Below, one piece after another: positions 14,865-38,567 of a stretch of DNA of 64,000 nt. Below the pieces are notes generated by a model that saw only the letters and a program-made list of their open reading frames with translations, did not search any database and had not been told where the DNA came from. The stretch comes from Diphasiastrum complanatum (lineage: Eukaryota; Streptophyta; Lycopodiopsida; Lycopodiales; Lycopodiaceae). Where the stretch lies: contig CM055100.1 of NCBI GenBank assembly GCA_029204225.1, positions 12,163,040 to 12,227,039 on the forward strand. The letters run 5' to 3'. Position 1 is the first letter of the stretch, and each line of letters starts with the position of its first letter. The position numbers were made by a program, and so were the translations under genes.

Positions 14865-14878
14865 CTCCTCCTCACTAT
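14865..14878 (-). other. Polypurine tract of A-minus
   Basis: The minus strand reads AGTGAGGAGGAG directly before the 3' LTR, identical to the tract at 28532-28543 in A-plus. Confidence 0.9.
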
Positions 14879-17634
14879 CTAGCTTGGTTCAATCATTGCT
14901 TTACTAATAACTCCAAGTGATGATCTGAACTTCATAAAAGGTTTCTTTTGAAGTGGTTTAGTAAGTAGATCAGCTACACATTCATTGCTTGGAACATGCT
15001 CCAAAGCAATCTCCTTGGCTTGCACCATTTCTCTCACAAAGTGATGGCATATCTCAATGTGCTTAGATCTTGCATGGAAGATTGGGTTAGATGCAAGGTG
15101 TTGGGCTGATATATTGTCATTGTAGATGATTGGTGCCTCCTCTGAATCCATGATCTTTAGTTCCACCAATAATCTCTTGATCCAAAGTACCTCCTTTGTA
15201 GTGGTTGTCAAAGCTTTGTACTCGGCCTCGGTTGAAGATAGAGATATAGTTTCTTGCTTTTTTGAAAGCCATGAAACCACACCTTCTCCTATGAAAGTTG
15301 AATAGGCACTTGTTGATTTCCTATCCCTCTTGTCCCCTGCAAAATCTGAATCACTAAATGCATGAAGGTTAATCACATCTCCTCTATATAGAATCCCAAA
15401 ATCCAATGTACCCGAGATGTATCTTAGAATCCTCTTAGCCTTTTTCCAATGGATATTCAATGGCTTTTGCATGGATTGGCTCAACCTACATACACTAAAG
15501 CTAAGATCTGGTCTAGTTATAGTCATCCACATTAAGGAACCTATAAGTTGCCTAAACAAAGTGATGTCCATGAAGGATCTTTCATCATCTTCATTTGGCA
15601 CTTTTACATCTTGCTCCATTGGTGTGTCAACACTTTTGCATACTTCCATCTTAAACTTCTTCAAAAGACTTTGAGCATAGTTTACTTGACTTATAAAGAT
15701 AAAATCAGACCCTCTAAGTACTTCTATGCCTAAGATGAAGTGAAGACACCCTAGATCTACCATCTTGAACTCTAAGGATAGATCTATCTTGATTTTTTCA
15801 ATACCATCAACACTATTTCCACTAATAATGATGTCATCTACATAAATGAGTAAAAGTACAATACCAACATCATCAAACTTAATGTAAAGAGTGGGATCAT
15901 ATTCACTTTGAACAAAAGAAAGTGAAATAAGATAGCAATGTAGTCTTGAATTCCAAGATCTCGAGGCTTGCTTCAAGCCATAGATGCTTCTTTGGAGATG
16001 GCATACTTTGTTCTCCATTCCATGCTTGATGAACCCTTGTGGCTGCTCCATATAGATATCCTCTTCCAAAAAACCATTCAAGAAATCATTAGAGACATCC
16101 ATTTGACATAGAATCCATCCAAAATGTGATGCAAAGTGCAATGATTAGTCTTATTGTGACCATCTTGGCCACGGGTGCAAAAGTTGCCTCATAGTCTATC
16201 CCTCTCTCTTGAGCATAACCTTTTGCAACTAATCTTGCTTTATGTTTGTTAACACTCCCATTTGCATTCAACTTAAGCTTGAAGACCCACTTGCATCCTA
16301 TTACATTCCTTTGAGGTCTCTCAACAAGCAACCAAGTTTCATTCTCAATCAAGGCATCATACTCATCCAACATAGCTTTATACCATTCTTTGGAGTTCAA
16401 TGCATCTTCAACATTAGATGGTTCTTCAAAACTAGATAAAGCATAAGAAGTGGATGAGATACCCTCAACTTGCTGTCCTTTGCCTTGATATGTGAGCCTT
16501 GATGTCTCCACTTTTGCCCTTGAAGATCTCCTTGGTGTGATAGGTGGGTTTGGTGCTTGCTCCTCCATGAGCTCCTCCTCAAAACCAAGATCTTGCTCCT
16601 CGACCATCTTCTTCTTGATTGTTGGAGCACTTGAGCCTTCTTCAAGCATATGCATATGATGTTCATCAAAGATGACATCCCTTGAAACAACAAATGGATG
16701 GGAGATAGACTTTATAGCCCTTGCTTGAGCTTGCATATCCAAGCATGATCCCTCTTGTGGAAGATGGATCCTCCTTGGTTCTTGTTTCCAATGGCACATG
16801 CACATAACATATACACCCAAAAACTTTCAAGTGATTAAGATTGGGTTTCTTTCCATACAACATCTCATAAGGAGTTTTGCCTTCAATTGCCTTGCAAGAC
16901 ACCCTATTCATCAAGTAGTTTGCACATACAAGAGACTCACCCCAAAAGGATTTGGGCAAACAAGCATCTAATCTTAAAGCCTTAGAACATTCACATAATG
17001 TTCTATTCCTTTTTTCAGCAACTCCATTTTGTTGAGGAGTGTAAGGACAAGAAGTCTCTTTCTTGATCCCTTCCTCCTCACAAAAGGCCTTGAACTCATT
17101 GGAGATGAATTCTCCACCATTGTCACTTCTAAGAATCTTGATGCTATGATTATGATGTTTTTCCACAAACAACTTGAACTTTACAAAAGTATCAAATTCT
17201 TGAGACTTGAAGGAAAGTAAGAACACCCAACAATATCTTGAGTAGTCATCAATGAAGGTTAAAAACATAGATGAACCTCCATTAGATTTGGTGCTAGCAA
17301 TGTGCACATCCGAGTGTATGAGTTCAAGAGGATGAGATGACTTTGTGATGGAGTTAGGAAACACCTTCTTATGTGCCTTGGATAAGGCACAAGCTTCACA
17401 AACCTTGTCTTCCTTCCCAATAGACCTTGGTAGGCCTAAAGCATACTCCTCCTTGATCATAACCTCCATGGAACCCGAGTTGACATGTCCAAGTCTTTTG
17501 TGCCATAAAGTAAAGGTAGATATCTTGTTCTTCTCGGCCAACATGACAACATTAGTATCCACAAATGCATCCAGCTTATAAAGTTTGCCAAGTCTAGTGC
17601 CCTTAGCCACTATCTTACCCTTCTTCTTGATGAG
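14879..17634 (-). pseudogene. pol: A-minus pol: integrase, reverse transcriptase, RNase H
   Basis: Downstream of the TGA at 17635-17637 the same frame continues. The pre-integrase reads LWHKRLGHVNSG with CEAC; the integrase triad lies in LIHSDVH, RSDNGGEF and NGVAEKRNRT; linker and GYKVYLP follow; then RT with KHKARLVAKGYAQ, QMDVSNDFLNG, YGLKQASRSW and YVDD at about 15833-15844; then RNase H with SDSDFAGD, LSSTEAEYKAL, NDNISAQ and VADLLTKPL. Two private lesions break it relative to A-plus: an 8-bp deletion near 16694 and a one-base insertion near 16134. Apart from these the frame is open to the end. The stop lies just before the polypurine tract. Confidence 0.93.
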
Positions 17635-18840
17635 TCATTCATTTGAAGCAAAGTCAACATTGAAACCATTGTCTACCATTTGGCCAACACTTAGTAGATT
17701 CTTTGTTATTGTAGGAATGTACAAAACACCTTCTATGTTGATCTTTTTGGAAAATCCTAAGCAAAGGGGAATGCTACCAACTCCTTCAATCTTACAAGCT
17801 TCATCATTTGCTGTATAGATAGACTTTATAGGTCCATCATAAGATAAGAGAGAAGAGAAAAACTCCCTTTTACTAGTCATGTGTGAACTAGCACCCGAGT
17901 CAATCCACCAAGGATCTTCTCCTTTGAAGCTTGTTGAAGAAAATATGGACATCATGAGAGAGTCCTCATGTGAACTCTCCTCCTCCTCCTCTTTGCTCAT
18001 GTTGGCTTGGCTTTGATCTTGCTTCCTCTTGAAGCATTCCAAGGCATAATGCCCCATCTTGCTACAATAGTAGCACTTCACCTTTGATTTGTCCTTCTTG
18101 ACTTTGGTGGTTGATGGAGATGCCTTTGGGGGTCCTTCTTGATCCTCAAGCTTTGTAGACTTCTTGAATGTTGATCCTTTGCCTTTGGACTTGCCTTTGC
18201 CTTTGGTGAAGAGAGCTTGGTCATCTCCACCTTGGATGGAAAGCCTATCCATCCTCTCTTGCATTTGGCTCCTTCTTGATTCCTCGGCCATGAGTGTGCC
18301 TTGGAGTTCTTCAAGTATGGGTAGCTTACCCATAATTGCATATCCCTGAACCAAATTGTCAAATTCAAAGCTTAGTCCATTCAATATGAGTTGAACAAGC
18401 TCTTCATCCTTGATAGGGTCACCTATAAAGGCTAGCTCTTTGTTCAATTCCTTTACTCTTAGGACAAAAGTATGTGCACTCTCTCCTTTCTTTTGATAGC
18501 TTCTATAGATTTGATTCTTCAAAGCTAACATTCTAGTTTGGTTCTTGGATTCATAGACCTTTTGCAAAGTCTCCCAAGCATCTTGAGCTGAAGTGCAATC
18601 TCCTACCTCTCTTAAGAGTTCATTTGCAACATTCATTTTTATGCAATGTAGTGCAACATTGCACCTCTTGATGTATTTGGCTTTTTCTTGAGGATGAATA
18701 GGTTCACCCTCCTTACCATTTACAATTTCCATCAGATCTTGCATGATCATGATGGATTCCATTTTAACTTTCCATATGGAATAGTTAGTTTTGTTGAGCC
18801 TTTCATTAGTATCCAAAAGATATGCATTTATAGATGCCAT
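17635..18840 (-). CDS. gag: A-minus gag-protease, 401 residues, ends at a shared TGA
   Basis: The start MASINAYLLDTNERLN is shared with A-plus. Gag UBN2-type region covers residues ~20-190 (WETLQKVYESKN at ~90-100), a basic KGKGKSKGKG stretch lies at ~213-222, the zinc knuckle CYYCSKMGHYALEC at 256-269, and the aspartic protease active site WWIDSGASSH with catalytic Asp at 314. The protease continues to LLSVGQMVDNGFNV. The frame is intact over all 401 codons and stops at TGA where the sibling families B and D have Cys in the equivalent phrase. The frame after the TGA is open into pre-integrase. Gag packages RNA and the protease would mature the particle in the cytoplasm. Confidence 0.93.
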   Translation of the reverse strand: MASINAYLLDTNERLNKTNYSIWKVKMESIMIMQDLMEIVNGKEGEPIHPQEKAKYIKRCNVALHCIKMNVANELLREVGDCTSAQDAWETLQKVYESKNQTRMLALKNQIYRSYQKKGESAHTFVLRVKELNKELAFIGDPIKDEELVQLILNGLSFEFDNLVQGYAIMGKLPILEELQGTLMAEESRRSQMQERMDRLSIQGGDDQALFTKGKGKSKGKGSTFKKSTKLEDQEGPPKASPSTTKVKKDKSKVKCYYCSKMGHYALECFKRKQDQSQANMSKEEEEESSHEDSLMMSIFSSTSFKGEDPWWIDSGASSHMTSKREFFSSLLSYDGPIKSIYTANDEACKIEGVGSIPLCLGFSKKINIEGVLYIPTITKNLLSVGQMVDNGFNVDFASNE

Positions 18841-19638
18841 CTAGTCTCCTAATCAAGGACTTGACACAAATGAAGGTTACTTCTATTGATTTGATTGAAG
18901 GTCTACCTTATCCCACTTCTTAGGGACCTAAAAAGATCAGTAATAGACTTCCTATAAAGATCTAAGAATGATCTCTAACAAAATCAAATCATAGAATACT
19001 AGAAACAATGCACTTGCTTGATTGAAGTAGACAATACTAGTAGAATTGCCCCTCTTTCTATAAAGAACATTAAAGCTTCCAAATGATCTGATCAAGAGTG
19101 AATTTCAGCAACCTAATATACTTCCAAAATCACTTGTAAAAGATCTAAATGGAACTTAATGAGGATGCAACACAATCTACTATCCAATCACAAGCAAAAA
19201 ATGATCAAAATTGATGAAAAATTGATCTATTTTGGTGCATAAGTCAAGCAATGGTTGGACTGAACCTAAATCACTTTAGGAGGTGTATACTACACCTTAG
19301 GACAGCCTTTAAGAGTCCCCAAAACTCTGATCATCCCTCTCCTTGAATGCTAGAAAGCCTCCTCTATGAAATCACCTCCAAAACTCGCTTAGAAATCAAT
19401 GCTTGGAGCAAGCAAAACTTGCTATCTTGGTAATGTGAATTGAATTCAACTTTGCCTCTGGTTTTAGACAACTAAACACCTGCAAATGAAGTCACACAAC
19501 ACCAATCTCCAATGTATTTGACTCACTTTGAGTTCTAGAATCAATACTAGATGCTAAGATCCAATCTACACAAGATTTAGATCAAAGATTGTGATCAAAT
19601 TGAATGAAAACCAAGGATTTAGCTCATTTCAACCTTTA
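18841..19638 (-). other. A-minus untranslated leader
   Basis: About 800 bp between the PBS and the gag start, collinear with 23762-24560 in A-plus. It presumably contains the packaging signal and gag translation leader. No ORF of note. Confidence 0.8.
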
Positions 19639-19651
19639 GGCTCTGATACCA
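19639..19651 (-). other. Primer-binding site of A-minus
   Basis: GGCTCTGATACCA on the plus strand is TGGTATCAGAGCC in element sense, abutting the 5' LTR. It is complementary to initiator Met tRNA. Confidence 0.95.
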
Positions 19652-20333
19652 TGTAAAAATTACAGCAAATAAGGATCCTAAAACACTTGAAATGATGAGG
19701 GAAACAATAGATTATGATTTCATAAGATTAGCACAAGTTGAACCATCAAAATCCATCAAAAATCTATGCTTGAACCTCACTAAATGGCCCAAATACTTGA
19801 AGAAGGCTTCACACGTGTGAAAGTACGGCCTCCCACAGTCTGAGTACTGTACACCAGACCTACATTCAATCCTATAGTCATTAGTAATCACAAGTACTCA
19901 AACAATTATGAACATAGAGAGCAATTGCACCATTATGAGAGAAAAAACATGAAATTGCTTGATTGATTTTGGTGAGATATCATCACCTATATATACATGA
20001 TCCATCACGGTTTTGGGCAGGTATGAGTAGCCCTAAACCTATCCCAAATGCTGATTTTGGTGGATCTTTCATCCCTACCAAGTTAGAGTTGGAATCTTGG
20101 AGATCCCTCAACAATGCAAAAATTACCAAAAATAGCTCCTATTTTTTCTCCCTTGTATCTAAGCATAATTTGGACTCATTCCAAAGGTTCTAACACTTAG
20201 GTCTACTTGAGAACATCCTTATAAATGGAATCCTATTCTATTTGGCACGTGTGACAAGCCACATCATGATTATCTAACTATTTACAAGTCATATGACCAA
20301 AACTAGTCAAGCTAGAATTGTGAATTTTTAACA
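19652..20333 (-). repeat. A-minus 5' LTR, 682 bp
   Basis: Nearly identical to the 3' LTR at 14183-14864. It keeps the palindrome TTCACACGTGTGAA at 19808-19821 and the TATA-like TATATATACA. Its outer end AATTTTTAACA meets the TSD TTTGG. Confidence 0.97.
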
Positions 20334-21703: not shown

Positions 21704-21708
21704 AGATT

Positions 21709-22356
21709 TGTGAAAGATTTCAGATCCTTAAGATCCAATCTACTTGAATGATCTTTGGTTAGAAAGAGAAATACACTACCAATTTCACCAATGTAGAAAA
21801 ATCAGCATCTACACACAATTTGAGATGCAAACACTAATAGAACTTGATCACACTTGAATGAAATGATTATGTACTGCTGCTGTCCATACAAAACCAGCAA
21901 GCTACTGTATTTCACACGTGTGGATCCAAAATAGCAAATATAGATCATTCTACACATAGAATTGCAAGCAATCACCAAGATAGTGCACAATGGATAGTAG
22001 AACCCAAGAGAACCATGTATAAGCATGAAATGAGATAGAGAAGAGAGAAGATGACTCTCTCCACGAGTTACATCCTTTTATAACAGGTCCAAACCCTATT
22101 TGGCTACTTGGCTTTTCCACCAAAATGCTAACCCTACCAATTTTGGGTCTAGATTCAATGTACCGAACTTATTCAAATTGAATCTACTCAAACTCGCATT
22201 CTATCTTTCCCACACTTTCAAAAAGTGTTTATTCAAATGAAATTTAGACTAATGAACTTTGAAAAGTCAACCTCTAGGTCTAAAACAAGTTTTGGCCTCA
22301 ATATGCCAAATATGGAAATATTGCAAAATGTGATGAAACTAGTTGAATCTTCCACA
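21709..22356 (-). repeat. B-minus 3' LTR, 648 bp
   Basis: TGTGAAAGAT...TTCCACA on the plus strand. It carries TTCACACGTGTGGA at 21911-21924. The polypurine tract (minus strand GTTGAAGAGGGAG) lies at 22357-22369. Confidence 0.95.
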
Positions 22357-22940
22357 CTCCCTCTTCAACTAGTTTTAGCATAGACTTTGATAATATTCCA
22401 AGTGAAGTCCTATGCTTCATGAACAAGTCTTTTCCCAATGCTTTGGTGAAGATATCAGCTACACATTCCCTTGAAGACACATGTTGAAGCTCCACCTCCT
22501 TTGCAATGACTCGCTCCCTCACAAAATGATATTGTATCTCAATATGCTTGCTCCTAGCATGAAAGATAGGATTGGATGCCATTCTTTGGGCTGATTGATT
22601 GTCACAAAAGATGATTGGGCTCTCTGAAAAATCTAGCAAGTGAAGATCCTTGATCATCCTTTTGATCCATACCATCTCCTTTGTGCAATGTGTAAGAGCT
22701 TTGTACTCGGCCTCACTAGATGACAATGAGATAGTGGCTTGTTTCTTTGACATCCATGATATAGCTCCATCACCTATGAAAATACAATAAGAACTAATGG
22801 ATTTCCTATCCATTACATCTCCAGCATAGTCTGAATTTGCAAATCCAAAAAGATTAGGTGATGATCCCTCATACAATAGGCCAAAATCTCAAGTTCCAAT
22901 GATGTACCTCAAAACTCGCTTTCCTAGCTTCCAATGCTCC
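22298..22940 (-). pseudogene. B-minus RNase H, ending inside the 3' LTR
   Basis: Copia RNase H resumes at HWKLGKRVLRYI near 22928-22940 after the foreign segment, then shows NSDYAGD (first Asp region), FIGDGAISWMSKKQ, SSSEAEYKAL, FCDNQSAQ, HARSKHIEIQYHFVRE and VADIFTKAL. One shift lies near 22880. The frame passes through the purine tract and stops about 59 bp inside the LTR at 22298. With no RT upstream this domain could not act on its own product. Confidence 0.92.
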
Positions 22941-23067
22941 TAGCATAGTTTGTGCCAATAGAACTTTGATCCATCATAAGAATGATCTTCTTCCTAAGAA
23001 TAGATCTCCTTTCAATGATCATGTAATGCTCAGAATAGAAATAACCATAATTGATATAGAGAATAGT

Positions 23068-23748
23068 TGTTAAAAATTCACAATTCTAGCTTGACTAGTT
23101 TTGGTCATATGACTTGTAAATAGTTAGATGGTCATGATGTGGCTTGTCACACGTGCCAAATAGCATAGGATTCCATTCATAAGGATGTTCTCAAGTATAC
23201 CTAAGTGTTAGAACCTTTGGAATGAGTCCAAATTATGCTTAGATACAAGGGAGAAAAAATAGGAGCTATTTTTGGTAGTTTTTGCATTGTTGAGGGATCT
23301 CCAAGATTCCAACCCTAACTTGGTAGGGATGAAAGATCCACCAAAATTAGCATTAGGAATAGGTTTAGGGCTACTCATACCTACCCAAAACCGTGATGGA
23401 TCATGTATATATAGGTGATGATATCTCACCAAAATCAATCAAGCAATTTCATGATTTTTCTCTCATAATGGTGCAATTGCTCTCTATGTTCATAATTGTT
23501 TGAGTACTTGTGATTACTAATGATTATAGTATTGAATGTAGGTCTGGTGTACAGTACTCAGACTGTGGGAGGCCGTACTTTCACACGTGTGAAGCTTCTT
23601 CAAGGATTTGGGCCATTTAGTGAGGTTCAAGCATAGATTTTTGATGGATTTTGATGGTTCAACTTGTGCTAATCTTATGAAATCATAATCTATTGTTTCC
23701 CTCATCATTTCAAGTGTTTTAGGATCCTTATTTGCTGTAATATTTACA
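23068..23748 (+). repeat. A-plus 5' LTR, 681 bp
   Basis: TGTTAAAAAT...ATTTACA. A TATA-like TATATATAG lies at 23406-23414 with the probable RNA start ~30 bp downstream. The palindrome TTCACACGTGTGAA is at 23580-23593, preceded by GTACAGTACTCAGACTG and GGCCGTACT. Confidence 0.97.
23406..23414 (+). promoter_or_regulatory. TATA box of the A-plus 5' LTR
   Basis: TATATATAG about 340 bp into the LTR, at the place expected for the U3/R promoter. The same site exists in all four A LTRs. Confidence 0.6.
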
Positions 23749-23761
23749 TGGTATCAGAGCC
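23749..23761 (+). other. Primer-binding site of A-plus
   Basis: TGGTATCAGAGCC directly abuts the LTR end, complementary to initiator Met tRNA. Confidence 0.95.
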
Positions 23762-24560
23762 TAAAGGCTGAAATGAGCTAAATCCTTGGTTTTCATTCAA
23801 TTTGATCACAATTTTTGATCTAAATCTTGTGTAGATTGGATCTTAGCATCTAGTATTGATTCTAGAACTCAAAGTGACTCAAATACATTGGAGATTGGTG
23901 TTGTGTGACTTCATTTGCAGGTGTTTAGGTGTCTAAAACCAGAGGCAAAGTTGAATTCAATTCACATTACCAAGATAGCAAGTTTTTGCTTGCTCCAAGC
24001 ATTGATTTCTAAGCGAGTTTTGGAGGTGATTTCATAGAGGAGGCTTTCTAGCATTCAAGGAGAGGGAAGATCAGAGTTTTGGGGACTCTTCAAGGCTGTT
24101 CTAAGGTGTAGTAGGCACCTCCTAAAGTGATTTAGGTTCAGTCCAACCATTGCTTGACTTATGCACCAAATTAGATCAATTTTTCATCAATTTTGATCAT
24201 TTTTTGCTTGTGATTGGATAGTAGATTGTGTTGCATCCTCATTAAGTTCCATTTAGATCTTTTACAAGTGATTTTGGAAGTATATTAGGTTGCTGAAATT
24301 CACTCTTGATCAGATCATTTGGAAGCTTTAATGTTCTTTATAGAAAGAGGGGCAATTCTACTAGTATTGTCTACTTCAATCAAGCAAGTACATTGTTTCT
24401 AGTATTCTATGATTTGATTTTGTTAGAGATCATTCTTAGATCTTTATAGGAAGTCTATTACTGATCTTTTTAGGTCCCTAAGAAGTGGGATAAGGTAGAC
24501 CTTCAATCAAATCAATAGAAGTAACCTTCATTTGTGTCAAGTCCTTGATTAGGAGACTAG
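23762..24560 (+). other. A-plus untranslated leader
   Basis: About 800 bp without a significant ORF, collinear with the A-minus leader. Gag starts at 24561. Confidence 0.8.
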
Positions 24561-25766
24561 ATGGCATCTATAAATGCATATCTTTTGGATACTAATGAAA
24601 GACTCAACAAAAGTAACTATTCCATATGGAAAGTTAGAATGGAATCTATCATGATCATGCAAGATCTGATGTAAATTGTAAATGGTAAGGAGGGTGAACC
24701 TATTCATCCTCAAGAAAAAGCCAAATACATCAAGAGGTGCAATGTTGCACTACATTGCATAAAAATGAATGTTGCAAATGAACTCTTAAGAGAGGTAGGA
24801 GATTGCACTTCAGCTCAAGATGCTTGGGAGACTTTGCAAAAGGTCTATGAATCCAAGAACCAAACTATAATGTTAGCTTGGAAGAATCAAATCTATAGAA
24901 GCCATCAAAAGAAAGGAGAGAGTGCACATACTTTTGTCCTAAGAGTAAAGGAATTGAACAAAGAGCTAGCCTTTATAGGTGACCCTATCAAGGATGAAGA
25001 GCTTGTTCAACTCATATTGAATGGACTAAGCTTTGAATTTGACAATTTGGTTCAGGGATATGCAATTATGGGTAAGCTACCCATACTTGAAGAACTCCAA
25101 GGCACACTCATGGCCGAGGAATCAAGAAGGAGCCAAATGCAAGAGAGGATGGATAGGCTTTCCATGCAAGGTGGATATGACCAAGCTCTCTTCACCAAAG
25201 GCAAAGGCAAGTCCAAAGGCAAAGGATCAACATTCAAGAAGTCTACAAAGCTTGAGGATCAAGAAGGACCCCCAAAGGCATCTCCATCAACCACCAAAGT
25301 CAAGAAGGACAAATCAAAGGTGAAGTGCTACTATTTTAGCAAGATGGGGCATTATGCCTCGGAATGCTTCAAGAGGAAGCAAGATCAAAGCCAAGCCAAC
25401 ATGAGCAAAGAGGAGGAGGAGGAGAGTTCACATGAGGACTCTCTCATGATGTCCATATTTTCTTCAACAAGCTTCAAAGGAGAAGATCCTTGGTGGATTG
25501 ACTCGGGTGCTAGTTCACACATGACTAGTAAAAGGGAGTTTTTCTCTTCTCTCTTATCTTATGATGGACCTATAAAGTCTATCTATACAGCAAATGATGA
25601 AGCTTGTAAGATTGAAGGAGTTGGTAGCATTCCCCTTTGCTTAGGATCTTCCAAAAAGATCAACATAGAAGGTGTTTTGTACATTCCTACAATAACAAAG
25701 AATCTACTAAGTGTTGGCCAAATGGTAGACAATGGTTTCAATATTGACTTTGCTTCAAATGAATGA
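24561..25766 (+). pseudogene. gag: A-plus gag-protease, early stop and altered zinc knuckle
   Basis: Collinear with the 401-residue A-minus gag-PR. It has a private stop at codon 38 (TAA, 24672-24674, where A-minus has Glu). The zinc knuckle near 25327-25368 reads CYYFSKMGHYASEC: the second Cys is Phe, which should abolish zinc binding. The protease active site WWIDSGASSHM is kept. It ends in the same TGA (25764-25766) as A-minus. From the first Met after the stop (24765) 333 codons are open. Confidence 0.93.
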
Positions 25767-28529
25767 CTCATCAAGAAGAAGGATAAGATAGTGGCTAAGG
25801 GCACTAGACTTGGCAAACTTTATAAGCTGGATGCATTTGTGGATACTAATGTTGTCATGTTGGCCGAGAAGAACAAGATATCTACCTTTACTTTATGGCA
25901 CAAAAGACTTGGACATGTCAACTCGGGTTCCATGGAGGCTATGATCAAGGAGGAGTATGCTTTAGGCCTACCAAGGTCTATTGGGAAGGAAGACAAGGTT
26001 TGTGAAGCTTGTGCCTTATCCAAGGCACATAAGAAGGTGTTTCCTAACTCCATCACAAAATCATCTCATCCTCTTGAACTCATACACTCGGATGTGCACA
26101 TTGCTAGCACCAAATCTAATGGAGGTTCATCCATGTTTTTAACCTTCATTGATGACTACTCAAGATATTGTTGGGTGTTCTTACTTTCCTTCAAGTCTCA
26201 AGAATTTGATACTTTTGTAAAGTTCAAGTTGTTTGTGGAAAAACATCATAATCATAGCATCAAGATTCTTAGAAGTGACAATGGTGGAGAATTCATCTCC
26301 AATGAGTTCAAGGCCTTTTGTGAGGAGGAAGGGATCAAGAAAGAGACTTCTTGTCCTTACACTCCTCAACAAAATGGAGTTGCTGAAAAAAGGAATAGAA
26401 CATTATGTGAATGTTCTAAGGCTTTAAGATTAGATGCTTGTTTGCCCAAATCCTTTTGGGGTGAGTCTCTTGTATGTGCAAACTACTTGATGAATAGGGT
26501 GTCTTGCAAAGCAATTGAAGGCAAAACTCCTTATGAGATGTTGTATGGAAAGAAACCAATCTTAATCACTTGAAAGTTTTTGGGTGTATATGTTATGTGC
26601 ATGTGCCATTGGAAACAAGAACCAAGGAGGATCCATCTTCCACAAGAGGGATCATGCTTGGATATGCAAGCTCAAGCAAGGGCTATAAAGTCTATCTCCC
26701 ATCCTTGAACAAATTTGTTGTTTCAAGGGATGTCATCTTTGATGAACATCATATGCATATGCTTGAAGAAGGCTCAAGTGCTCCAACAATCAAGAAGAAG
26801 ATGGTCGAGGAGCAAGATCTTGGTTTTGAGGAGGAGCTCATGGAGGAGCAAGCACCAAACCCACCTATCACACCAAGGAGATCTTCAAGGGCAAAAGTGG
26901 AGACATCAAGGCTCACATATCAAGGCAAAGGACAGCAAGTTGAGGGTATCTCATCCACTTCTTATGCTTTATCTAGTTTTGAAGAACCATCTAATGTTGA
27001 AGATGCATTGAACTCCAAAGAATGGTATAAAGCTATGTTGGATGAGTATGATGCCTTGATTGAGAATGAAACTTGGTTGCTTGTTGAGAGACCTCAAAGG
27101 AATGTAATAGGATGCAAGTGGGTCTTCAAGCTTAAGTTAAATGCAAATGGGAGTGTTAACAAACATAAAGCAAGATTAGTTGCAAAAGGTTATGCTCAAG
27201 AGAGAGGGATAGACTATGAGGAAACTTTTGCACCCGTGGCCAAGATGGTCACAATAAGACTAATCATTGCACTTGCATCACATTTTGGATGGATTCTATG
27301 TCAAATGGATGTCTCTAATGCTTTCTTGAATGGTTTTTTGGAAGAGGATATCTATATGGAGCAGCCACAAGGGTTCATCAAGCATGGAATGGAGAACAAA
27401 GTATGCCATCTCCAAAGAAGCATCTATGGCTTGAAGCAAGCCTTGAGATCTTGGAATTCAAGACTACATTGCTATCTTATTTCACTTTCTTTTGTTCAAA
27501 GTGAATATGATCCTACTCTTTACATTAAGTTTGATGATGTTGGTATTGTACTTTTACTCATTTATGTAGATGACATCATCATTAGTGGAAATAGTGTTGA
27601 TGGTATTGAAAAAAATCAAGATAGATCTATCCTTAGTATTCAAGATGGTAGATCTAGGGTGTCTTCACTTCATCTTAGGCATAGAAGTACTTAGAGGGTC
27701 TGATTTTATCTTTATAAGTCAAGTAAACTATGCTCAAAGTCTTTTGAAGAAGTTTAAGATGGAAGTATGCAAAAGTGTTGACACACCAATGGAGCAAGAT
27801 GTAAAAGTGCCAAATGAAGATGATGAAAGATCCTTCATGGACATCACTTTGTTTAGGCAACTTATAGGTTCCTTAACGTGGATCACTACAACTAGACCAG
27901 ATCTTAGCTTTAGTGTATGTAGGTTGAGCCAATCCATGCAAAAGCCATTGAATATCCATTGGAAAAAGGCTAAGAGGATTCTAAGATACATCTCGGGTAC
28001 ATTGGATTTTGGGATTCTATATAGAGGAGATGTGATTAACCTTCATGCATTTAGTGATTCAGATTTTGCAGGGGACAAGAGGGATAGGAAATCAACAAGT
28101 GCCTATTCAACTTTCATAGGAGAAGGTGTGGTTTCATGGCTTTCAAAAAAGCAAGAAACTATATCTCTATCTTCAACCGAGGCCGAGTACAAAGCTTTGA
28201 CAACCACTACAAAGGAGGTACTTTGGATCAAGAGATTATTGGTGGAACTAAAGATCATGGATTCAGAGGAGGCACCAATCATCTACAATGACAATATATC
28301 AGCCCAACACCTTGCATCTAACCCAATCTTCCATGCAAGATCTAAGCACATTGAGATATGCCATCACTTTGTGAGAGAAATGGTGCAAGCCAAGGAGATT
28401 GCTTTGGAGCATGTTCCAAGCAATGAATGTGTAGCTGATCTACTTACTAAACCAATTCAAAAGACACCTTTTATGAAGTTTAGATCATCACTTGGAGTGA
28501 TTAGTAAAGCAATGATTGAACCAAGCTAG
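25767..28529 (+). pseudogene. pol: A-plus pol: integrase, reverse transcriptase, RNase H
   Basis: In-frame continuation after the TGA: LIKKKDKIVAKG, pre-integrase LWHKRLGH, integrase catalytic phrases HSDVH, SDNGGEF and NGVAEKRN, RT phrases KARLVAKGY, QMDVSNAFLNGF and LIYVDDIIISG (near 27558-27590), and RNase H SDSDFAGD, STEAEYKAL, NDNISAQ and ADLLTKP. Private one-base errors lie near 26560 (loss of C in the AAACCC run) and near 27612 (an extra A in an A run just after YVDD). All catalytic residues that I can read are kept. The stop at 28527-28529 precedes the purine tract. Confidence 0.94.
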
Positions 28530-28531
28530 AT

Positions 28532-28543
28532 AGTGAGGAGGAG
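28532..28543 (+). other. Polypurine tract of A-plus
   Basis: AGTGAGGAGGAG immediately before the 3' LTR start TGTTAAAAAT. Confidence 0.92.
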
Positions 28544-29224
28544 TGTTAAAAATTCACAATTCTAGCTTGACTAGTTTTGGTCATATGACTTGTAAATAGT
28601 TAGATAATCATGATGTGGCTTGTCACACGTGCCAAATAGCATAGGATTCCATTCATAAGGATGTTCTCAAGTATACCTAAGTGTTAGAACCTTTGGAATG
28701 AGTCCAAATTATGCTTAGATACAAGGGAGAAAAAATAGGAGCTATTTTTGGTAATTTTTGCATTGTTGAGGGATCTCCAAGATTCCAACCCTAACTTGGT
28801 AGGGATGAAAGATCCACCAAAATTAGCATTAGGGATAGGTTTAGGGCTACTCATACCTGCCCAAAACCGTGATGGATCATGTATATATAGGTGATGATAT
28901 CTCACCAAAATCAATCAAGCAATTTCATGATTTTTCTCTCATAATGGTGCAATTGCTCTCTATGTTCATAATTGTTTGAGTACTTGTGATTACTAATGAT
29001 TATAGGATTGAATGTAGGTCTGGTGTACAGTACTCAGACTGTGGGAGGCCGTACTTTCACACGTGTGAAGCTTCTTCAAGGATTTGGGCCATTTAGTGAG
29101 GTTCAAGCATAGATTTTTGATGGATTTTGATGGTTCAACTTGTGCTAATCTTATGAAATCATAATCTATTGTTTCCCTCATCATTTCAAGTGTTTTAGGA
29201 TCCTTATTTGCTGTAATTTTTACA
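28544..29224 (+). repeat. A-plus 3' LTR, 681 bp
   Basis: Matches 23068-23748 at all but about seven positions. The palindrome TTCACACGTGTGAA is at 29056-29069. It is followed by the TSD ATAGT. Confidence 0.97.
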
Positions 29225-29229
29225 ATAGT

Positions 29230-30172
29230 GTCCACTTGGGATGCTTCACTATTTCTTACATCAATTTTACATGTAAAAATGTGACTAGAACATGAAGAAT
29301 CAAATAGAATGTAAATGAAATGATTCCACCATGCTTCCAACTCTGAACTTTGTGGAAAATTACAGCAAACAAACAATAAATTTGAGTGATCAACTTTTGC
29401 TTGCATGTCTCCTCCTTCTTTGTCCTTTGTTGCCTTGTATCCACCATGATACTCCATGAATGAGCCTCCATCTTCATCTTGCCACAAGAAACCATCAAAC
29501 CTTGGAAATCCATGAGTAGGTGAGTACGTAAATGATGCAAATCAAGCACCACATGACTGCATAAACCAAGTAGTTTGCACTAGTCCATCTTCAAGATCTA
29601 CTTGACACAAGAAAATGACCGTGAATTCACCAAAAATTGACAATCTCCAAGTATTGGCACCAAGTAGCTCAACACTTGAGAACTTAGCCATGGATGAGTG
29701 ACATAATGAACCTCCAATAGCTTCATTTCCATCAGCAAAATCGGCCAAGAATGCTAGTACAAATCCAACATCAAAACAATGCTCACCAATGTAGCTAGTT
29801 TTGCCATATCTTGACAATTTGCACACATCCACATGAAATTGCTCAAACATGAGATAAAACAAGTAAAGTAAACTTGAACAACACTTCCTTGCTGCTCCTT
29901 TGAACTTACTTGAGTCATCAATATTCTGCAAAAATATATCCATAACACCCTTGCCAATTACCTCTCCTTTGATGCTCTTGACTAGCTCCAAATTGCCACC
30001 TTCCATTTTGACTAGTTGAAGCGCTTTGAGATCAACCTCTTGATCTTCAACTTGATCATCAAAGTCATTGAAAAAAATTTGTTTTCCATATCCATTACTT
30101 GATTTTACAGCAAGACAACATCCGTCCACTTGTATAGCTCCATGTACACAAGAAGATCCTCCAAAAGATGTT
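29230..30172 (-). CDS. Non-copia ORF replacing the RT of B-minus (continues at 22941-23067)
   Basis: The integrase-RT linker of B runs in frame through ARKEEEWIQAMNLEYQFLMK and at about 30172 departs from copia. The sequence that follows has no RT motif: no KARLVAKG, no YVDD. It reads as an ordinary protein rich in aromatic residues (LLYLFYLMFEQFHVDVCK, LAFLADFADGNEAIGG, FDGFLWQDEDGGSFMEYHGG, ELEAWWNHFIYILFDSS). One TGA near 29544 interrupts it. After the A-plus insertion it continues at 23067-22941 and meets RNase H out of frame. The same insert with 1-3% differences by eye is in B-plus. The family and source gene are unknown; a captured host gene fragment is the simplest idea. Confidence 0.6.
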
Positions 30173-31239
30173 CCACTCTTCATAAGAAATTGATACTCAA
30201 GATTCATTGCTTGGATCCACTCCTCTTCTTTCCTTGCTTGATCTACACTTGTAGGCTCATCCAAAGAGGTTAGGAAAGCAACATAATTTCCAAAAACTAC
30301 TTGCTTACCCTTTTGATCATATGTGAGCCTTGAAGGTACTTGTCTTTCCCTTGATGTTCTCCTTGGTTTTTGACTTGATGAAGGTCCATCATCATCACCA
30401 TCCAAAGTAGGATCCTTCTCATCAACATCAAGAATGTTAGATCCATCCACACTACCATCAATCATGCTTGAAGACACTTTTGGAATGTTCCCCTCATCAA
30501 AGATGACATCTTTACCAACCATCACTTTGTTAGTATACGGAATGTAAACCTTGTAGGCTTTACTCACCTCACTATATCCAACAAAAATACCTCTTCTTGA
30601 AGATGGATCCTCCTTGGTCCTATCATCAAGAGTAATGTTGACATAGCATGTGCATCCAAAGGTTCTTAGAAATTTGACACTCGGCCTCCTCTTAAATAGC
30701 ATCTCAAAAGGTGTCCTTCCATCCAAAATAGCACTCGGCCACCTATTGCACAAGAAATTGGCACACAACAAAGCTTGATCTCAAAATGGTTTGTCAAGAT
30801 TAGCACTTAACCTCATAGCTTTAGCACACATAAAGTCCTATTCTTCCTTTCAACCACTCCATTTTATTGTGGAGTCCTTGATGTTGTATACTCCCTCTTG
30901 ATCCCATGCTCATCACAAAAGGCCTTGAACTTGTTAGATATGTACTCACCACCATTGTCACCTCTCAAGCACTTGATCTTTGTGGAGAATTGGTTCTCCC
31001 TTGCATTCTTGAACTTGACAAAGACATCATACACCATCCTTGCTCTTTAGTATATAGATCCAACAAAATCTACTAAAATCATCAATGAATGTTACATACA
31101 TCTTAGCTCCACTATTGCTAATTGTAGTAAATCCATGAATATCCGAATGTACAAGTTGAAAAGGCTTTGTAGATCTAGAAATAGATCTAGTATAAGGTAG
31201 TTTATATGACTTAGACAAAGCACAAGACTCACAAACATG
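30173..31239 (-). pseudogene. B-minus integrase, broken
   Basis: Downstream of the TAG at 31240 the copia integrase continues: CESCALSKSYKLPYTRS, LVHSDIHGF (first Asp), FIDDFSRFCWIY, LRGDNGGEYIS (second Asp) and NGVVERKNRT (Glu). Then come LCNRWPSAILDGRTPFEML, FVGYSEVSKAYKVYIP, VIFDEG and the linker to QAMNLEY. Frame shifts lie after SKDGV (~31027) and around 30830-30890. The first shift is shared with B-plus. The last 200 codons (from 30771) are open and run into the foreign ORF. Confidence 0.88.
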
Positions 31240-32681
31240 CTAGTCATTACTTAAGGAACTTGGAAAACCAATCACAACCTTCTTCCTTGCCATTACCTCC
31301 AATGACTTGAAGTTGAGGTGTCCCATCCTTTTGTGCCAAACCTCTTGAATAGAAATTTGCTCCCTTGCAACACATCCAACTTGGTTAGCAATAACGCAAG
31401 CATCAAGTTTGAACAACTTCCCTTGCCTTTTACCTTTTCCAATCAAGACATCCTTCCTTTTGATCAAACAAGCATCTCCATCAGACTCCACCTTGAGGGC
31501 CTTACTTACCATTTGACTCACACTAAGCAAATTCTTGGTAATACATGGAATAAACAAGACATACTCCAAATGAGCATTCCTATTTGTAGAGAGAGAAATA
31601 AGAATTGTGCCAATCCCTTTGATTGCACACTCACCATCATTGGCCGTGTAGATCACCTTCTTGTCACCTCCATATGCCAACAAAGAGGTGAAGTACTCTT
31701 TGTGAAAGGTCATGTGTGAACTTGCTCCACTATCAATCCACCAAGGATCAAGATCTCCATCATTAGCAAGCATACATGAAGACATCACAAAAGCATCATC
31801 ATTTGCATCTTGCACATCCAAACCATCCTCATCAAGAGTAAGATTACCTTGCTTGTCTCCTTGATCTCTCTTCTTCTTGTAGCACTCACTTGCAAAGTGT
31901 CCTTTGATGCCACAATAGAAGCACTTGAGCTTTGATCTATCCTTCTTTTTGCCACTTGAAGAAGCATCCACTTGATCTTGCCCTTTAGACCACTTGCTTT
32001 TTTGTTTTTGCCCTTGAGTTTGCCCTTTGTGAACATAGCATCCTCTTGAAGTGTCGATGTAGATCCACCTCTTGCTTGAAGCCTATATTCCTCATTGATC
32101 AAGATCTCTTGAAGATACATCAAACTTAGCAAAGTCTTTTGAATAGCAATACTTAGAACAATTTTAGCATGAGCATCCAACAAGCCATTAAGAATCACTC
32201 GAATAAGCTCTCCTTCCTTAATGCTTTCATCTATGCAAGCTAACTCATCATTCAATGCTTTCATTCTCAAAACAAAAGTACTTGGACTTTCTTTATTCTT
32301 TTGCAAACAAGAAAAGATTTGCCTTCTTAGAGTCAACACTCTAGAAGTAGACTTGGATTCATAAAGCTTCTTCAATGAATTCCAAGCTTCCAAAGATGGA
32401 TGTGCACTTACCAACTTCCTTGAGAAGTTCATTGGTAGCATTCATCTTTATCATGTGTAGAGCCTTCTTGGCCCTCTTGTCATACCTCAATTGATCTTGT
32501 TGTGTTGCTGGTCTCTCTTCAATTGATCTTGTTGTGTTTCTGGTCTCTCCTCCAAAGCTAAAACAATATCCAAAACATCATTCATCTCAAGAAGTGACTC
32601 CATTCTCACTTTCCATAATGAATAGTTACTTGAGGTAAGCCTATCATTGGCTTCCAACATGACTCCAATTGAGGTTGCCAT
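31240..32681 (-). pseudogene. gag: B-minus gag-protease, several shared lesions
   Basis: Start MATSIGVMLEANDRL at 32681. A 32-bp tandem duplication (32486-32549) shifts the frame. A further one-base shift lies near VGKCTS/AHPSLEAWNSL (~32400), another just before the zinc knuckle (~31965). The knuckle is CFYCGIKGHFASEC; the protease site is WWIDSGASSHMTF; pre-integrase reads VWHKRMGHLNFKSLE. It ends at TAG 31240-31242 before the integrase zinc finger. All of these breaks also occur in B-plus at matching places. Confidence 0.9.
32486..32549. repeat. 32-bp tandem duplication in B-minus gag
   Basis: Two head-to-tail 32-bp units differing at two positions. Since 32 is not a multiple of three, the duplication shifts the gag frame. 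The identical event is at 42853-42916 in B-plus. Confidence 0.95.
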
Positions 32682-33269
32682 GTAGCAATGACCTGATCTT
32701 CTCTTTCAACCTGTTTCAATGCACAAAGCACTCCTATGAACAACAACAAATGCTTTCAAAAGAAATCACCAAGATTTCAAACTATCTCACAAATTCTCTT
32801 CTAGCACTTATCCAAGCAAATCAACACATAGAATCATGGAATCTTGATCAACCTATGATCTATCCTCAATCTAATGACTTTTGCCACTTCCTAAGATTGA
32901 AACACACTCAAATGAAGTCCAGCAACCTCACTATCTAGAGATCCAATCAAAATTAGGGTTTTGACAAAATCACAAAAAATTGACTATTCCAAATCTACAT
33001 GCAAATGCGGAAAATTTGATATGCAATCTATAAGCCACCACTTAGGCTGAACCAATGATCCAAAAATCGGCCAAATCCAGCATGTGAATTCAAAAAATGG
33101 AATTGAACAAGTATATTGAACTATTTAGTGTTTTGATCTACAAAAGATCCAATCTACAAAAGCAAAAAATCTGATTTTGGTGTAGAATCCTCTCTAGCAT
33201 GCTCTAGACTTGATATCTTCACCAAATCATTGATAGATCTAATTTCCTCCTTCATAACCTGAAACACAA
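32682..33269 (-). other. B-minus untranslated leader
   Basis: About 590 bp between the PBS and the gag start. It is open on the plus strand for 89 codons (32669-32938), which I regard as chance since the same holds for the homologous leader of B-plus. Confidence 0.75.
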
Positions 33270-33281
33270 GCTCTGATACCA
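33270..33281 (-). other. Primer-binding site of B-minus
   Basis: GCTCTGATACCA on the plus strand, i.e. TGGTATCAGAGC in element sense, abutting the 5' LTR. Confidence 0.93.
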
Positions 33282-33931
33282 TGTGAGAGATTTTAGATCC
33301 TTAAGATCCAATCTACTTGAATGATCTTTGGTTAGAAAGAGAAATACACTACCAATTTCACCAATGTAGAAAAATCAGCATCTACACAATATTTGAGATG
33401 CAAACACTAATAGAACTTGATCAAACTTGAATGAAATGATTATGTACTGTTGCTGTCCATACAAAACCAGCAAGATACTGTATTTCACACGTGTGGATCC
33501 AAAAATAGCAAATATAGAGCATTCTACACATAGAATTGCAAGCAATCACCAAGATAGTGCACCAATGGATAGTAGAACCCAAGAGAACCATGTATAAGCA
33601 TGAAATGAGATAGAGAAGAGAGAAGATGACTCTCTCCACGAGTTACATCCTTTTATAACAGGTCCAAACCCTATTTGGCCACTTGGCTTTCCCACCAAAA
33701 TGCTAACCCTACCAATTTTGGGTCTAGATTCAATGTACCCAACTTATTCAAATTGAATCTACTTAAACTCACATTCTATCTTTCCCACACTTTCAAAAAG
33801 TGTTTATTCAAATGAAATTTAGACTAATGAACTTTGAAAAGTCAACCTCTAAGTCTAAAACAAGTTTTGGCCTCAATATGCCAAATATGGAAATATTGCA
33901 AAATGTGATGAAACTAGTTGAATCTTTCACA
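33282..33931 (-). repeat. B-minus 5' LTR, 650 bp
   Basis: TGTGAGAGAT...TTTCACA on the plus strand. TTCACACGTGTGGA lies at 33484-33497 and the TATA box CCTTTTATA (sense TATAAAAGG) at 33649-33657. It is bordered by the TSD AGATT. Confidence 0.95.
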
Positions 33932-33941
33932 AGATTCTCGT

Positions 33942-35568: not shown

Positions 35569-36212
35569 TGTGAAGAAATTGCCAAAAATTGACAAATCTA
35601 GCTTGATCAAAAACCATGTAGAATAGTGTAAATTGTGTACACAAGTGGGTCCCACACATGTGAGGCCATGCTGCCACATGGGGTCATCCCTACTTTATAA
35701 GACCTACACCTAAATTTAAGGTGAAAATTTGACCAACTAGCTATCTACCAAGCATAACTCTAGGATCTAGGCTAGGGTTTCATTTTAGGTCAAGGAGAGT
35801 GAGTTAACTTCCTTATTACATGCTGGAAATCCACCTAACTTCAAGAAGGAAGTCGAATCTGCTATGTATTCCCTCTCTCCATAGTGAGAAGATAGAAAAT
35901 TTTTGGAGCTCATTGGCAATCTCAAGCTATTTCACTATGTACATTGAGTTTTGGTGATCCAAATGAAACCAAATCAATTTTTACTTGTTTCTCAGGTTGA
36001 AGGCCGTACTATAGCCTGTAGTACACACGTTTGGGCTCGGATTTCAATGTTGATCAATGCTTTTGATTGTGAATGCTTGTTGTTTGTCAAATTGCCAATC
36101 TAGATCAACTTTTTTGTGTCTAGTTTTTTGATAGATTGTTAAGCAAGCATCCAATCACTCTTGTGGATCTTTTGTAGATCCATTTATGGTCCTAGATTAT
36201 AGTACTTTCACA
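35569..36212 (+). repeat. D2 5' LTR, 644 bp
   Basis: TGTGAAGAAATT...TTTCACA. It lacks ~50 bp present in the 3' LTR after the phrase CCATGCTGCCACATG. It carries GCCGTACT and ACACACGTTTG, a decayed version of the palindrome, near 36022. Confidence 0.92.
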
Positions 36213-36225
36213 TGGTATCATAGCC
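36213..36225 (+). other. Primer-binding site of D2
   Basis: TGGTATCATAGCC, the initiator Met tRNA site with one substitution (T for G). Confidence 0.88.
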
Positions 36226-37017
36226 AAGTACAAGAGCATAAGCCATTGATCTAATGCAAATCCATTTTTAGCAAGTTTTGGTGTTAAAAACTAGTATTGA
36301 GAGGGCAAGCTAGAATCTTGATTTTGGTGAGGAGATTTGATCCCAAACTTGGTAGGGGTCCAAATCCGTACTATCCACATGTGTGGGCACCTCTAAACCT
36401 GCATTTAATGCATGGTATTCATTTGATCCAAAGAAATTCAATTTGTGAGCTTTTGATGTAATTTTTGGTGGAAATCTTAGAATAAGCTACCAAGATTGAG
36501 TGCCATTGATTAGATTTGACTTAGGGTCATGAGATCTAATTACTCTAGGCTGAAATCAGGTCCTCTATACTTGTTTTACAGGTCTTGAAAGTACATCAAA
36601 AAGTGTGAAAGAGATTAAGTCAATTTTTTGTCCAAAAATAGCCAAAATTGGCAAGATTTGATTGTAAGTAGATTTCACAACATCTTATCTTCATTCCAAC
36701 TTTGTGAGGGAGTGCTAGAACTGAGATTATAAGTCCATTTGTTGGACTAGAAATCTAATTTGAGTGAAAAACTACAAGGGAGAGACCTTAGTGAGTTTCT
36801 AGAGACAATCAAATCCATTTCTTGGCAAGATTTGTTTGAAAGTAGTTTTCACTTCATCTTATCTTCATTCCAGCTTTGTGAGGGAGTGATAGAACTGTGA
36901 TTATAAGTCCATTTGTTGAATTAGAAATCAAATTTGAGTGAAACACTACAAGTGTGAGACCTTTGTGAGTTTCAAGTCAATCAAATCTATTTCTTGTTTG
37001 TAGAAGTCACTAGTAAG

Positions 37018-38567
37018 ATGGGATCTGCTGGAGCATACCTTCTAGAAGCTAGTGAGAGATTGAATTCTACAAATAATGCTATTTGGAAGGTTAGGATGGA
37101 GTCACTCTTGGTGCTCCAAGACCTTCATGAGTTCTTGATTGAAGATGGAGATGAACCTCTAGGTGCACAGGAGTTAGCTAGATACAAGAAGAAATCTAGG
37201 CTTGCACTTCATTGTGTGAAGATGAATGTGAGCAATGATTTGTTGAGAGAAGTATCAGAATGTACTAGTGCTAAAGAGGCTTAGGAGTCTTTAAAAACAA
37301 TCTATGAATCTAGTAACAGTTCAAGAGTACTCATGCTTAGCAATCAGATTTTGCAAAGCATGAAGAGAAGTGAGGAGAGTGCACAGGATTATGTACTCAG
37401 AATCAAGTCTCTAAATAGGGAGTTGGTTTCCATTGGAGAGAAGATTCATGATGGAGAGCTTGTACAAATTGTTCTTAATGGTCTAGGAGATGACTTTGCA
37501 AACTTGGTCCAAAGTTTTTTCATCCAAGACACTTTGCCAACTATAGAAAAACTTCACAGTGTATTAGTGGCTGAAGAGTGTAGGATGCTCCATGCAAAAT
37601 CTAGGATGAGTTCCTTGTCTTTGCAAGATGGTGATGAGAAAGCCAATTTCTCATTCAAGGGCAAAAAGAAGACCAATGGAAAGAAGAAGCATCCAAAGGA
37701 GGCCAAAGAAGAGGATGATGCATCAAGCTCAAAGGACAAGTCAAAGCAAAAATGCTTCTTTTGTGGAAAGAAGGGGCATTATGCATCTGAATGCTACAAG
37801 AGGCTAAGAGCACAAGTGGAGGAGGACAAACAAGGAAACCTTGCAAAGGATGAGGAGGAGGATGAAGTAGATGTATTCTTGATGGCATCTACATCCTCAC
37901 CAACAAACAATAGCAATTCAAGAGACAATTGGTGGATCGACAGTGGGGCTAGCTCCCACATGTCTTGTGAAAAGGACTTTTCTCAACCTTACACTCATTC
38001 AATGATGCTAAAAATTTTGTCTTTACTGCAAATGATGAAGAGTGTAGGATAGATGGTGTTGGCACCATCTCTTTATGTCTAGAATCCTCAAAATGCATGG
38101 ATCTAGAAAATGTCCTTTATGTATCATCAATCACCAAGAATATGCTTAATGTTGGTCTACTCTTAGAAAGTGGTTTGGATGTCCACTTTAAGCATGGTGT
38201 TTGCTTCATCTTGAAGAATTATGTTTGCATTGCAAAGGGATTTAAACATGGAAGATTGTTTAAGTTGGAAGCTAGTGTTGCTTTTGAAAGAGTGAGCTTG
38301 GCAAAGGAGGAGATCACTCAAGAGGAGATCTTGGCAAAGTGTGATCTTGCTTGCATTGAGGAGGAGCATCAAAAGGAAGAAGATCTTGAGGATCAGCCTC
38401 AAAACATGAGAGTTCCAAGGGAGTCCTCAATGACAATGGCCAAGTCATCAAATTGCATGCAAATTGTCCATTCAAGTGTGCATCTTGCAAGGGTGGTGAG
38501 CATTGAAGAGTCTACTATGTCTGAATACTTTTTGAAAAGTAGTCTTTGGCAACATTTATGCACTTAA
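37018..38567 (+). pseudogene. gag: D2 gag-protease polyprotein, broken
   Basis: Start MGSAGAYLLEASERLN, gag core with SAKEAxESLKTIYESSN, IKSLNRELVSIGEKI and LVAEECRML, zinc knuckle CFFCGKKGHYASEC near 37759-37800, protease WWIDSGASSHMSCEKDF near 37933. A stop (TAG for TGG) sits at 37282-37284 and a one-base loss at ~37980 (TTTTCTC where D1 has TTTTTCTC) shifts the protease frame. The downstream part from MDLENVLYV is open for 156 codons, ends in the same acidic non-copia tail as D1 (EEEHQKEED, QPQNMRVPRE) and stops at 38565-38567. It is the best-preserved D gag in the window. Confidence 0.88.

Follow-up and report, generated by a model that had tools for sequence, protein, structure and literature searches.

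The window analysed here, the whole stretch of 64,000 nucleotides at positions 12,163,040 to 12,227,039 of contig CM055100.1 (GenBank assembly GCA_029204225.1) of the lycopod Diphasiastrum complanatum, contains two copies of element B, a 6 kb copia retrotransposon family with the order long terminal repeat (LTR), gag, protease (PR), integrase (IN), X, RNase H (RH), LTR, in which X is the name given to an insert of about 1.07 kb standing in the position of the reverse transcriptase (RT). The replacement of the RT in B is real and represents a family trait. The RT-less form, B-X, is probably a semi-autonomous copia form that arose by copy-choice from the RNAs of RT-bearing B and of B2-type elements, the RT being supplied in trans. 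An earlier note on this DNA had interpreted X as a host gene captured in a manner comparable to the maize element Bs1; X was, however, found to belong to a second retrotransposon family, B2.

The RT-less form of element B

The search of the genome with X yielded 4,361 first-look candidates, the best 40 of which, the window's own included, all matched at 97% or more. From the best X matches, 20 copies of B were fetched together with their flanks, these being hence X-bearing and relatively intact by selection. In all of them (20/20) X adjoins IN without a gap and is followed by the RNase H sequence, a count showing the structure rather than its frequency, as all the copies were found by X; local deletions or insertions are present in some, e.g. 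L028 and L020. A 32-bp pattern of the IN/X junction, allowing at most 2 mismatches, occurs 923 times in the forward and 869 times in the reverse orientation, i.e. 1,792 times genome-wide (reversed control: 0), in agreement with the previous proposal that the element has multiplied in its RT-less form. No published description of B-X was found in a literature search covering open-access papers only.

With regard to its structure, B exhibits the features of the Ty1/copia elements—the TG...CA ends of the LTRs, the primer site after the 5' LTR and the 5-bp target duplication—as well as gag-PR-IN preceding RT-RH, seen in the RT-bearing stretch described below and, as gag, PR, IN and SH3, in the X copies (Pfam, tblastn). 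The B-X form lacks just the RT (Pfam and the profile of local RTs), and, as in non-autonomous or semi-autonomous elements, an essential enzyme has thus been lost, yet the element has multiplied with intact LTRs. The LTR-LTR distances (Kimura two-parameter, K80) are 0.012-0.035 in the 11 listed B copies, over 239-651 aligned bases. Clear 5-bp target-site duplications (TSDs) accompany the window copy and four of the 11 (L011, L025, L027 and L028), the remaining seven having a truncated end or no clean TSD.

The absence of RT motifs from X, claimed in the earlier note, was upheld by Pfam, which finds no RT in it, and a profile of 14 local RTs gave only -1.6 bits for X of the copy L019, 59 of 400 shuffles scoring as high. 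In that copy gag, PR, IN and X are read as a single open frame of 1,190 codons, an open RNase H following in another frame; it is without 18 bp of IN that most other copies keep. A chimeric Gag-PR-IN-X product, suggested previously, is possible from some copies. X is stop-free in 11 of the 20 copies, two of these (L023 and L024) having small deletions. For the frame tests L019 and the B2 copy L046 were picked as the most open copies, and 300 Markov sequences were simulated under each of two models; X of L019 has no stop in 361 codons, whereas the simulated sequences have 14-22 on average and never fewer than 5.

RT-bearing copies of element B

The copies of B that still carry an RT were first reached via the RT of B0, a more distant relative with open SH3-RT-RH located in L045 (minus strand, 7501-5400). 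The search with the B0 RT revealed three places with flanks 95-98% identical to B and a fourth one (C21) at 83-87%. Two of the three close places, C15 and C6, were read across the RT and neither has X, i.e. the insert was not seen beside an intact RT, the arrangement that the earlier note had regarded as contradicting a replacement. The stretch C15:19076754-19078243 represents a stop-free 496-codon SH3-RT(YVDD)-RH frame without X, its identity to B being 96.5% up to the junction and 97.6% from RNase H onward. In the C6 stretch, 96% identical on both sides, the RT likewise takes X's place, but its frame breaks within the RT and RNase H has lost its front part.

Using the C15 RT as the query, 3,841 first-look candidates were obtained, the best 40, itself included, being 99-100% identical over 886-888 bp. 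The pattern of the RT-start junction occurs approximately 1,696 times (844 + 852; control: 0); among the first 100 RT-junction places that were listed, there are all five of the C15-RT matches from the best 40 that lie on C1 and C2. Judged from these patterns, both the RT-bearing and the X-bearing forms of B look common. The idea of RT-bearing relatives being rare, based on only 46 candidates from the search with the B0 RT, was rejected in view of the 3,841 obtained with the RT of B; the low count is therefore artefactual, due either to common words having been skipped or to distance.

The two forms can hardly be told from each other in the flanks of the exchanged part. The SH3 identities of three RT-bearing copies to the X copies are 97.0, 97.2 and 95.2%, compared with 97.05% among the X copies themselves, and those of RNase H for two RT-bearing copies are 97.5 and 95.7%, compared with 97.88%. 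There is no diagnostic column discriminating the RT-bearing from the X copies in either SH3 (0/285, three RT-bearing copies) or RNase H (0/289, two RT-bearing copies), the C21 copy (84%) having been excluded from this count.

Concerning B0 itself, recorded in L045 and at C19:32757212, C9:12930387, C1:15613069, C20:24258002 and C8:15398426, its RT is approximately 100% identical at five places, L045 included, which are thus very recent copies.

B2, a second family carrying X

The second family was found as a relative beside a B copy (in L013, then in L029), and its description is based on four copies (L029, L044, L045 and L046) plus low-copy relatives. The identity between B2 and B is 79% for gag, 69% for PR, 78% for the LTR and 87% for X; the two families resemble each other in LTR termini and primer site, the LTR ends being similar also in B0. 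Copies such as L044 have the order LTR-gag-PR-X-LTR, with scraps only of IN and of the end of RNase H. X is longer here, covering about 2.1 kb after gag-PR and extending to the 3' LTR, and X of B corresponds to the 3' part of this longer open frame; the finding that would have spoken against gene capture according to the earlier note, namely that the insert is itself part of a transposon, was thus largely made. In L046, the most open of the four, an open frame of 794 codons covers PR and X together; X accounts for 685 of these and contains no stop, against simulated means of 32-44. The X region has one stop in L044, the frame breaks in L029, and a further insertion interrupts L045. The search with X of B2 gave 4,592 first-look candidates.

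Two explanations were discarded at this level. That the RT has merely decayed in place was ruled out, since RT-bearing B copies share the flanks and X occurs in B2. An 88-bp gap in X of B2 is not an intron, because it has no GT-AG ends and the deletions of other copies differ from it.

Some variation within the family is worth mentioning. A stretch of about 165-170 bp is missing from mid-X in three B2-type copies (L042, L043 and L046), each time at the same place, so that internal deletion variants of X exist. Moreover, B2-type copies occur in clusters, four at C10:9.40-10.15 Mb and two at C14:47.66/48.23 Mb, and those compared (two of the four from C10 and both from C14) are nearly identical, which, as far as the sequences can tell, looks more like local duplication than transposition.

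Timing of the exchange and constraint on X

The ratio of nonsynonymous to synonymous divergence (dN/dS, here w) was determined between six B and three B2 copies, giving 18 pairs for each region. For gag-PR, dS is 0.52-0.64 and w is 0.27-0.38, whereas for X, dS is only 0.05-0.11, dN 0.12-0.17 and w 1.4-2.4 (method of Nei and Gojobori, NG86). The dS of X lies far below that of gag-PR, and X has therefore been shared much later than the gag-PR regions separated. Between B and the RT-bearing B0, w is 0.29 for SH3 and 0.14 for RNase H; these low values indicate past constraint on both domains.

Within B, neutrality was examined in 22 copies, five regions and three classes each, and no region clearly departs from it. 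The lowest values are those of the singleton stops in IN-SH3 (2 vs 6.9 expected, P 0.029) and of the gag variants shared by at least three copies (n 2, P 0.043). Neither pattern is seen in X, which has 10 singleton stops vs 7.8 expected and w of 0.84-1.12; the comparison of dN/dS among B copies, proposed in the earlier note as a check, has thus delivered a neutral-looking result. Whether replacements in X are in excess between B and B2 varies with polarity, P being 0.005 for one and 0.18 for the other, the shortage of stops in the same comparison is not clear (P 0.07 and 0.16), and among the B2-type copies w of X scatters from 0.27 to 2.8, mostly 0.5-1.3. Strong positive selection on X was consequently not accepted, the result hanging on polarity. 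Taken at the level of these substitution patterns, purifying selection on the X protein is undetectable and positive selection unproven.

Origin of B-X

The junctions are readable. At the left one (marked by a slash), B reads GGAACAT/CTTTTGG, RT-bearing B (C6) GGAACAT/GG and B2 TTCACAT/GTTTTG; at the right one, the end of X is followed closely by GGAGCATTGG, a sequence that runs uninterrupted in RT-bearing B. Given these junctions and the alike LTR termini and primer sites, B-X could therefore form in one round of reverse transcription. Template switching, supply of the RT in trans and the B2-to-B direction are suggested here by established retrotransposon biology: an RT-bearing B RNA and a B2-type RNA (gag-PR-X) would have been packaged together in one particle, and the reverse transcriptase would have switched template between them, on the left at the short common word ACAT and on the right just upstream of RNase H, yielding B-X by copy-choice in a single round. 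The product would retain the LTRs, primer site, gag, PR, IN and RNase H, with the polymerase gone. The RT from RT-bearing B copies would then act in trans on B-X and allow its spread, i.e. B-X has probably multiplied by borrowing RT from complete relatives in the same genome, while the RT-bearing and X forms would stay alike through recombination or recency. X itself would be a passenger, an old open frame consisting partly of worn pol. Pairwise recombination in the course of bursts is reported for Onsen, a family of Arabidopsis (PMC5668417), and template switching has been described from Triticeae (PMC1950507).

Several points weigh against this reading. The direction of the transfer rests on the longer X in B2 and on the B junction falling inside X, and an unsampled third element could have been the donor of X. 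The RT-bearing B was likened to B-X by the SH3 and RH flanks of two or three copies. Since a conserved protein motif underlies the RT-junction pattern, some of the occurrences of this pattern may belong to other families. The open gag-PR-IN-X frame of L019 exists despite no clear purifying selection within B, and the burst of B may be too recent for selection to be judged.

As to what X is made of, a serious candidate, if short of an even chance, is that it is wholly decayed and rearranged copia pol, with palm, linker and RT C-terminus reordered, the middle worn and nothing foreign captured. Its size is compatible with this, X having about 1.07 kb vs about 0.88 kb of the replaced RT, and three of its pieces resemble pol, not in the normal pol order. 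The start of the B-shared part (X3, first ~90 bp) resembles the SH3-RT linker (z 11.6 vs B0 and 6.1 vs element A), and the last ~190 bp of X include, compared with B0, RT C-terminal DNA out of frame (B scoring 61 vs 31.8 +/- 3.7 for shuffles, z about 8; B2 z 4.3). The segment X2, lying upstream in B2, is similar to the RT palm of B0 with the motif YMEQ..YGLK..LYF..LLIY and the YVDD lost (DNA z 3.6, protein z 5.0; hhalign E 1.4e-4, probability 52), its palm profile reaching 12.0 bits in L044 vs 6.0 for the best of 400 shuffles. The likeness is, however, very uneven along X: the profile score of mid-X is barely above the shuffles (9/400 as high), the palm score of L046 is 5.2 vs 4.5 for the best shuffle, and with the other four RT targets neither the X end (z -0.9 to 2.4) nor X2 (z 0.1 to 2.9) gives a clear result. 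Furthermore, plain decay should put stops throughout the 685 codons that are open in L046.

Precisely these open codons, far beyond chance, together with the ~600 bp of mid-X in which no clear pol homology was found in DNA or protein, speak for the original view of a Bs1-style capture, in the sense that at least mid-X would be a fragment of a cellular gene that entered B via a B2-type element. This is nevertheless unlikely. Both X ends and the upstream X2 resemble pol, and, unlike what is expected for such a capture, the insert is part of a transposon. X2, X3 and X of B match no Pfam family at E up to 10, and X1 has only a sub-threshold match, I-HmuI_NUMOD-like (E 0.06-0.07 over 16-18 residues, with a score of half the cut-off). 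The Protein Data Bank (PDB) offers no match for X of the window; for the frame of B2 it gives two weak ones (E 0.2 and 0.7). The AlphaFold model of the window X, made from two sequences, is uninformative (mean pLDDT 32). No donor locus and no intron-bearing donor gene was found among the best 40 of the 4,361 candidates in the own genome, where the search is saturated by transposon copies that fill these places.

Rather improbable is also the possibility that X is a mobile module moving between LTR families and aiding its recipients while its amino acids drift freely, the benefit coming, with the same low probability, from the long translatable frame or from an RNA feature replacing the RT. If this were true, X might, for example, protect the genomic RNA from decay or aid packaging, bringing the RT-less form to parity with its parent. 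Still less probable is X as a working accessory protein, or a Gag-PR-IN-X fusion, aiding the spread under adaptive change: long open frames do occur in two high-copy families and the differences in X between B and B2 lean to amino-acid changes, but the variants within B, nonsense ones too, look neutral, and the polarity-dependent excess and the scatter of w among the B2-type copies argue against it as well. Finally, an assembly or nesting artefact, with X as an unrelated insertion in just the two window copies, may draw on element A being truly nested in the region and is refuted by the 1,792 junctions genome-wide and the clean empty site for A, leaving it practically no probability.

Relation to known elements

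TR-GAG elements have GAG as their only retrotransposon domain; unlike these, B has PR, IN and RH, and B2 has gag, PR and X. Non-autonomous elements as such are already known; B-X differs from the wheat elements RLG_Quinta and RLG_Sabrina in the loss of the RT alone, with IN and RNase H kept, and in that a relative of the probable donor is identifiable. The comparisons that follow are limited to excerpts of the papers cited. The plan of B2 matches closely that of RLG_Quinta from einkorn wheat, a non-autonomous element with GAG and a domain of unknown function, without RT and IN, the LTR ends and primer site of which match those of its autonomous partner RLG_Cereba, both lineages having recombined (PMC11302176). 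Unlike RLG_Quinta, by its name a Gypsy element, B is a copia that keeps IN and RNase H and has lost the RT alone, and X is common to two families. B2 also resembles RLG_Sabrina and RLG_WHAM, high-copy wheat elements with GAG-Pro and without RT or IN; in shorter RLG_Sabrina variants the GAG-Pro block has been swapped for unrelated segments encoding other proteins (PMC9744471), whereas in B it is the RT that was replaced, and the family with the same segment has been identified.

Among the copia families, RLC_Angela of wheat comprises autonomous and non-autonomous forms that coexist and are similar in size (PMC9744471), much as the RT-bearing and RT-less forms of B do, although the coding part of the non-autonomous RLC_Angela is described as highly degenerate, while B-X represents a defined domain swap with long open frames in some copies. 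The barley BARE-2, a parasitic copia attributed to template switching, is presumed to use the protein of BARE-1 (PMC13317346, PMC9744471); it has a broken GAG and has taken up foreign LTR sequence, unlike B-X, which is without RT. The maize Bs1 is an LTR element with a non-pol coding sequence and a chimeric frame, its segments coming from named host genes (PMC13317346), whereas X is common to another retrotransposon and no host donor is known.

Parasitic retrotransposons are common, and their founding event is seldom visible with the parts still present. In this case the RT-bearing form, the RT-less form and the X-sharing relative coexist, the junction is readable, and the two forms of B are apparently present in comparable numbers. 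This opens the questions of how frequently retrotransposons of different families recombine, whether a parasite needs a stuffer replacing its polymerase, and why a frame stays open without amino-acid constraint.

Element B and other elements in the window

The first window copy, B-minus, is a whole copia insertion at 21709-33931 on the minus strand, flanked by the target duplication AGATT as read from the flanks (21704-21708 on the left, i.e. the side of the 3' LTR, and 33932-33936). Its LTRs have 650 and 648 bp with the LTR-LTR K80 of 0.022. The 5' LTR (33282-33931, TGTGAAAG...TCTCACA) is followed by the primer-binding site TGGTATCAGAGC. The coding part for gag-PR-IN-SH3/linker (30168-32681; PF22936, PF13976, zf-CCHC and PF25597 by Pfam) is broken by a tandem duplication in gag, a stop after LSND and frame breaks in IN; with these it spans IN and the SH3/linker, ending with ...QAMNLEYQFLMKSGT just before the RT position. 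X begins directly after the ACAT junction, runs from 30167 to 29225, holds a stop (open reading frame, ORF, 30771-29542) and resumes at 23062-22941, its last part taking in some of the RT C-terminal relic, which is out of frame. The interruption is due to element A, a separate plus-strand copia inside X (23068-29224, TSD ACTAT) not belonging to B, so that the span 22941-30172, to which the observation had previously been assigned, is not B throughout. RNase H restarts, as noticed before, at HWKLGKRVLRYI; it does so in a different frame and occupies with the polypurine tract 22357-22940; the 3' LTR lies at 21709-22356.

The second copy, B-plus, spans 42340-46683 on the plus strand. It is without the 5' LTR and consists of the leader, gag, PR and part of IN (42340-44522) up to an internal deletion, X with its left end deleted (44523-45449), RNase H with the polypurine tract (45450-46033) and the 3' LTR (46034-46683). 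The deletion of about 850 bp removed the IN C-terminus, SH3, the linker and the first part of X; B-plus also carries the empty site for the insertion of element A. As for the copies in which the RT had originally been seen replaced, this therefore holds as such for B-minus, the junction itself being deleted from B-plus. Likewise, copia coding up to QAMNLEYQFLM is present, with frame breaks, in B-minus, while the motif is deleted from B-plus. The insert of B-plus, said to be open for more than 300 codons, indeed lies in a frame of 341 codons (44441-45466), this frame, however, fusing IN straight onto the middle of X, and an intact X frame is found in neither window copy (0/2). The gag tandem duplication, the stop after LSND and the IN breaks are common to B-minus (30880-33062) and B-plus (42340-44522), and the two copies pair in the tree of X from nine B copies (support 0.94); the damage has therefore spread along with the copies.

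Concerning the other elements of the window, element A is a copia with RT present in two copies, at 14183-20333 (minus strand) and 23068-29224 (plus strand), the LTR-LTR K80 being about 0.010 in each; in the plus-strand copy the RT is split over the overlapping frames 26570-27694 and 27570-28529. The related elements at 803-5019 and 35625-39306 have gag-PR and a shrunken, decayed pol, the latter with a scrap of the RT C-terminus at 38630-38743, and they may constitute another non-autonomous family. In the copia at 59146-62793 (minus strand), PR is followed directly by the C-terminal part of the RT and by RNase H, representing a different route of losing IN and most of the RT.

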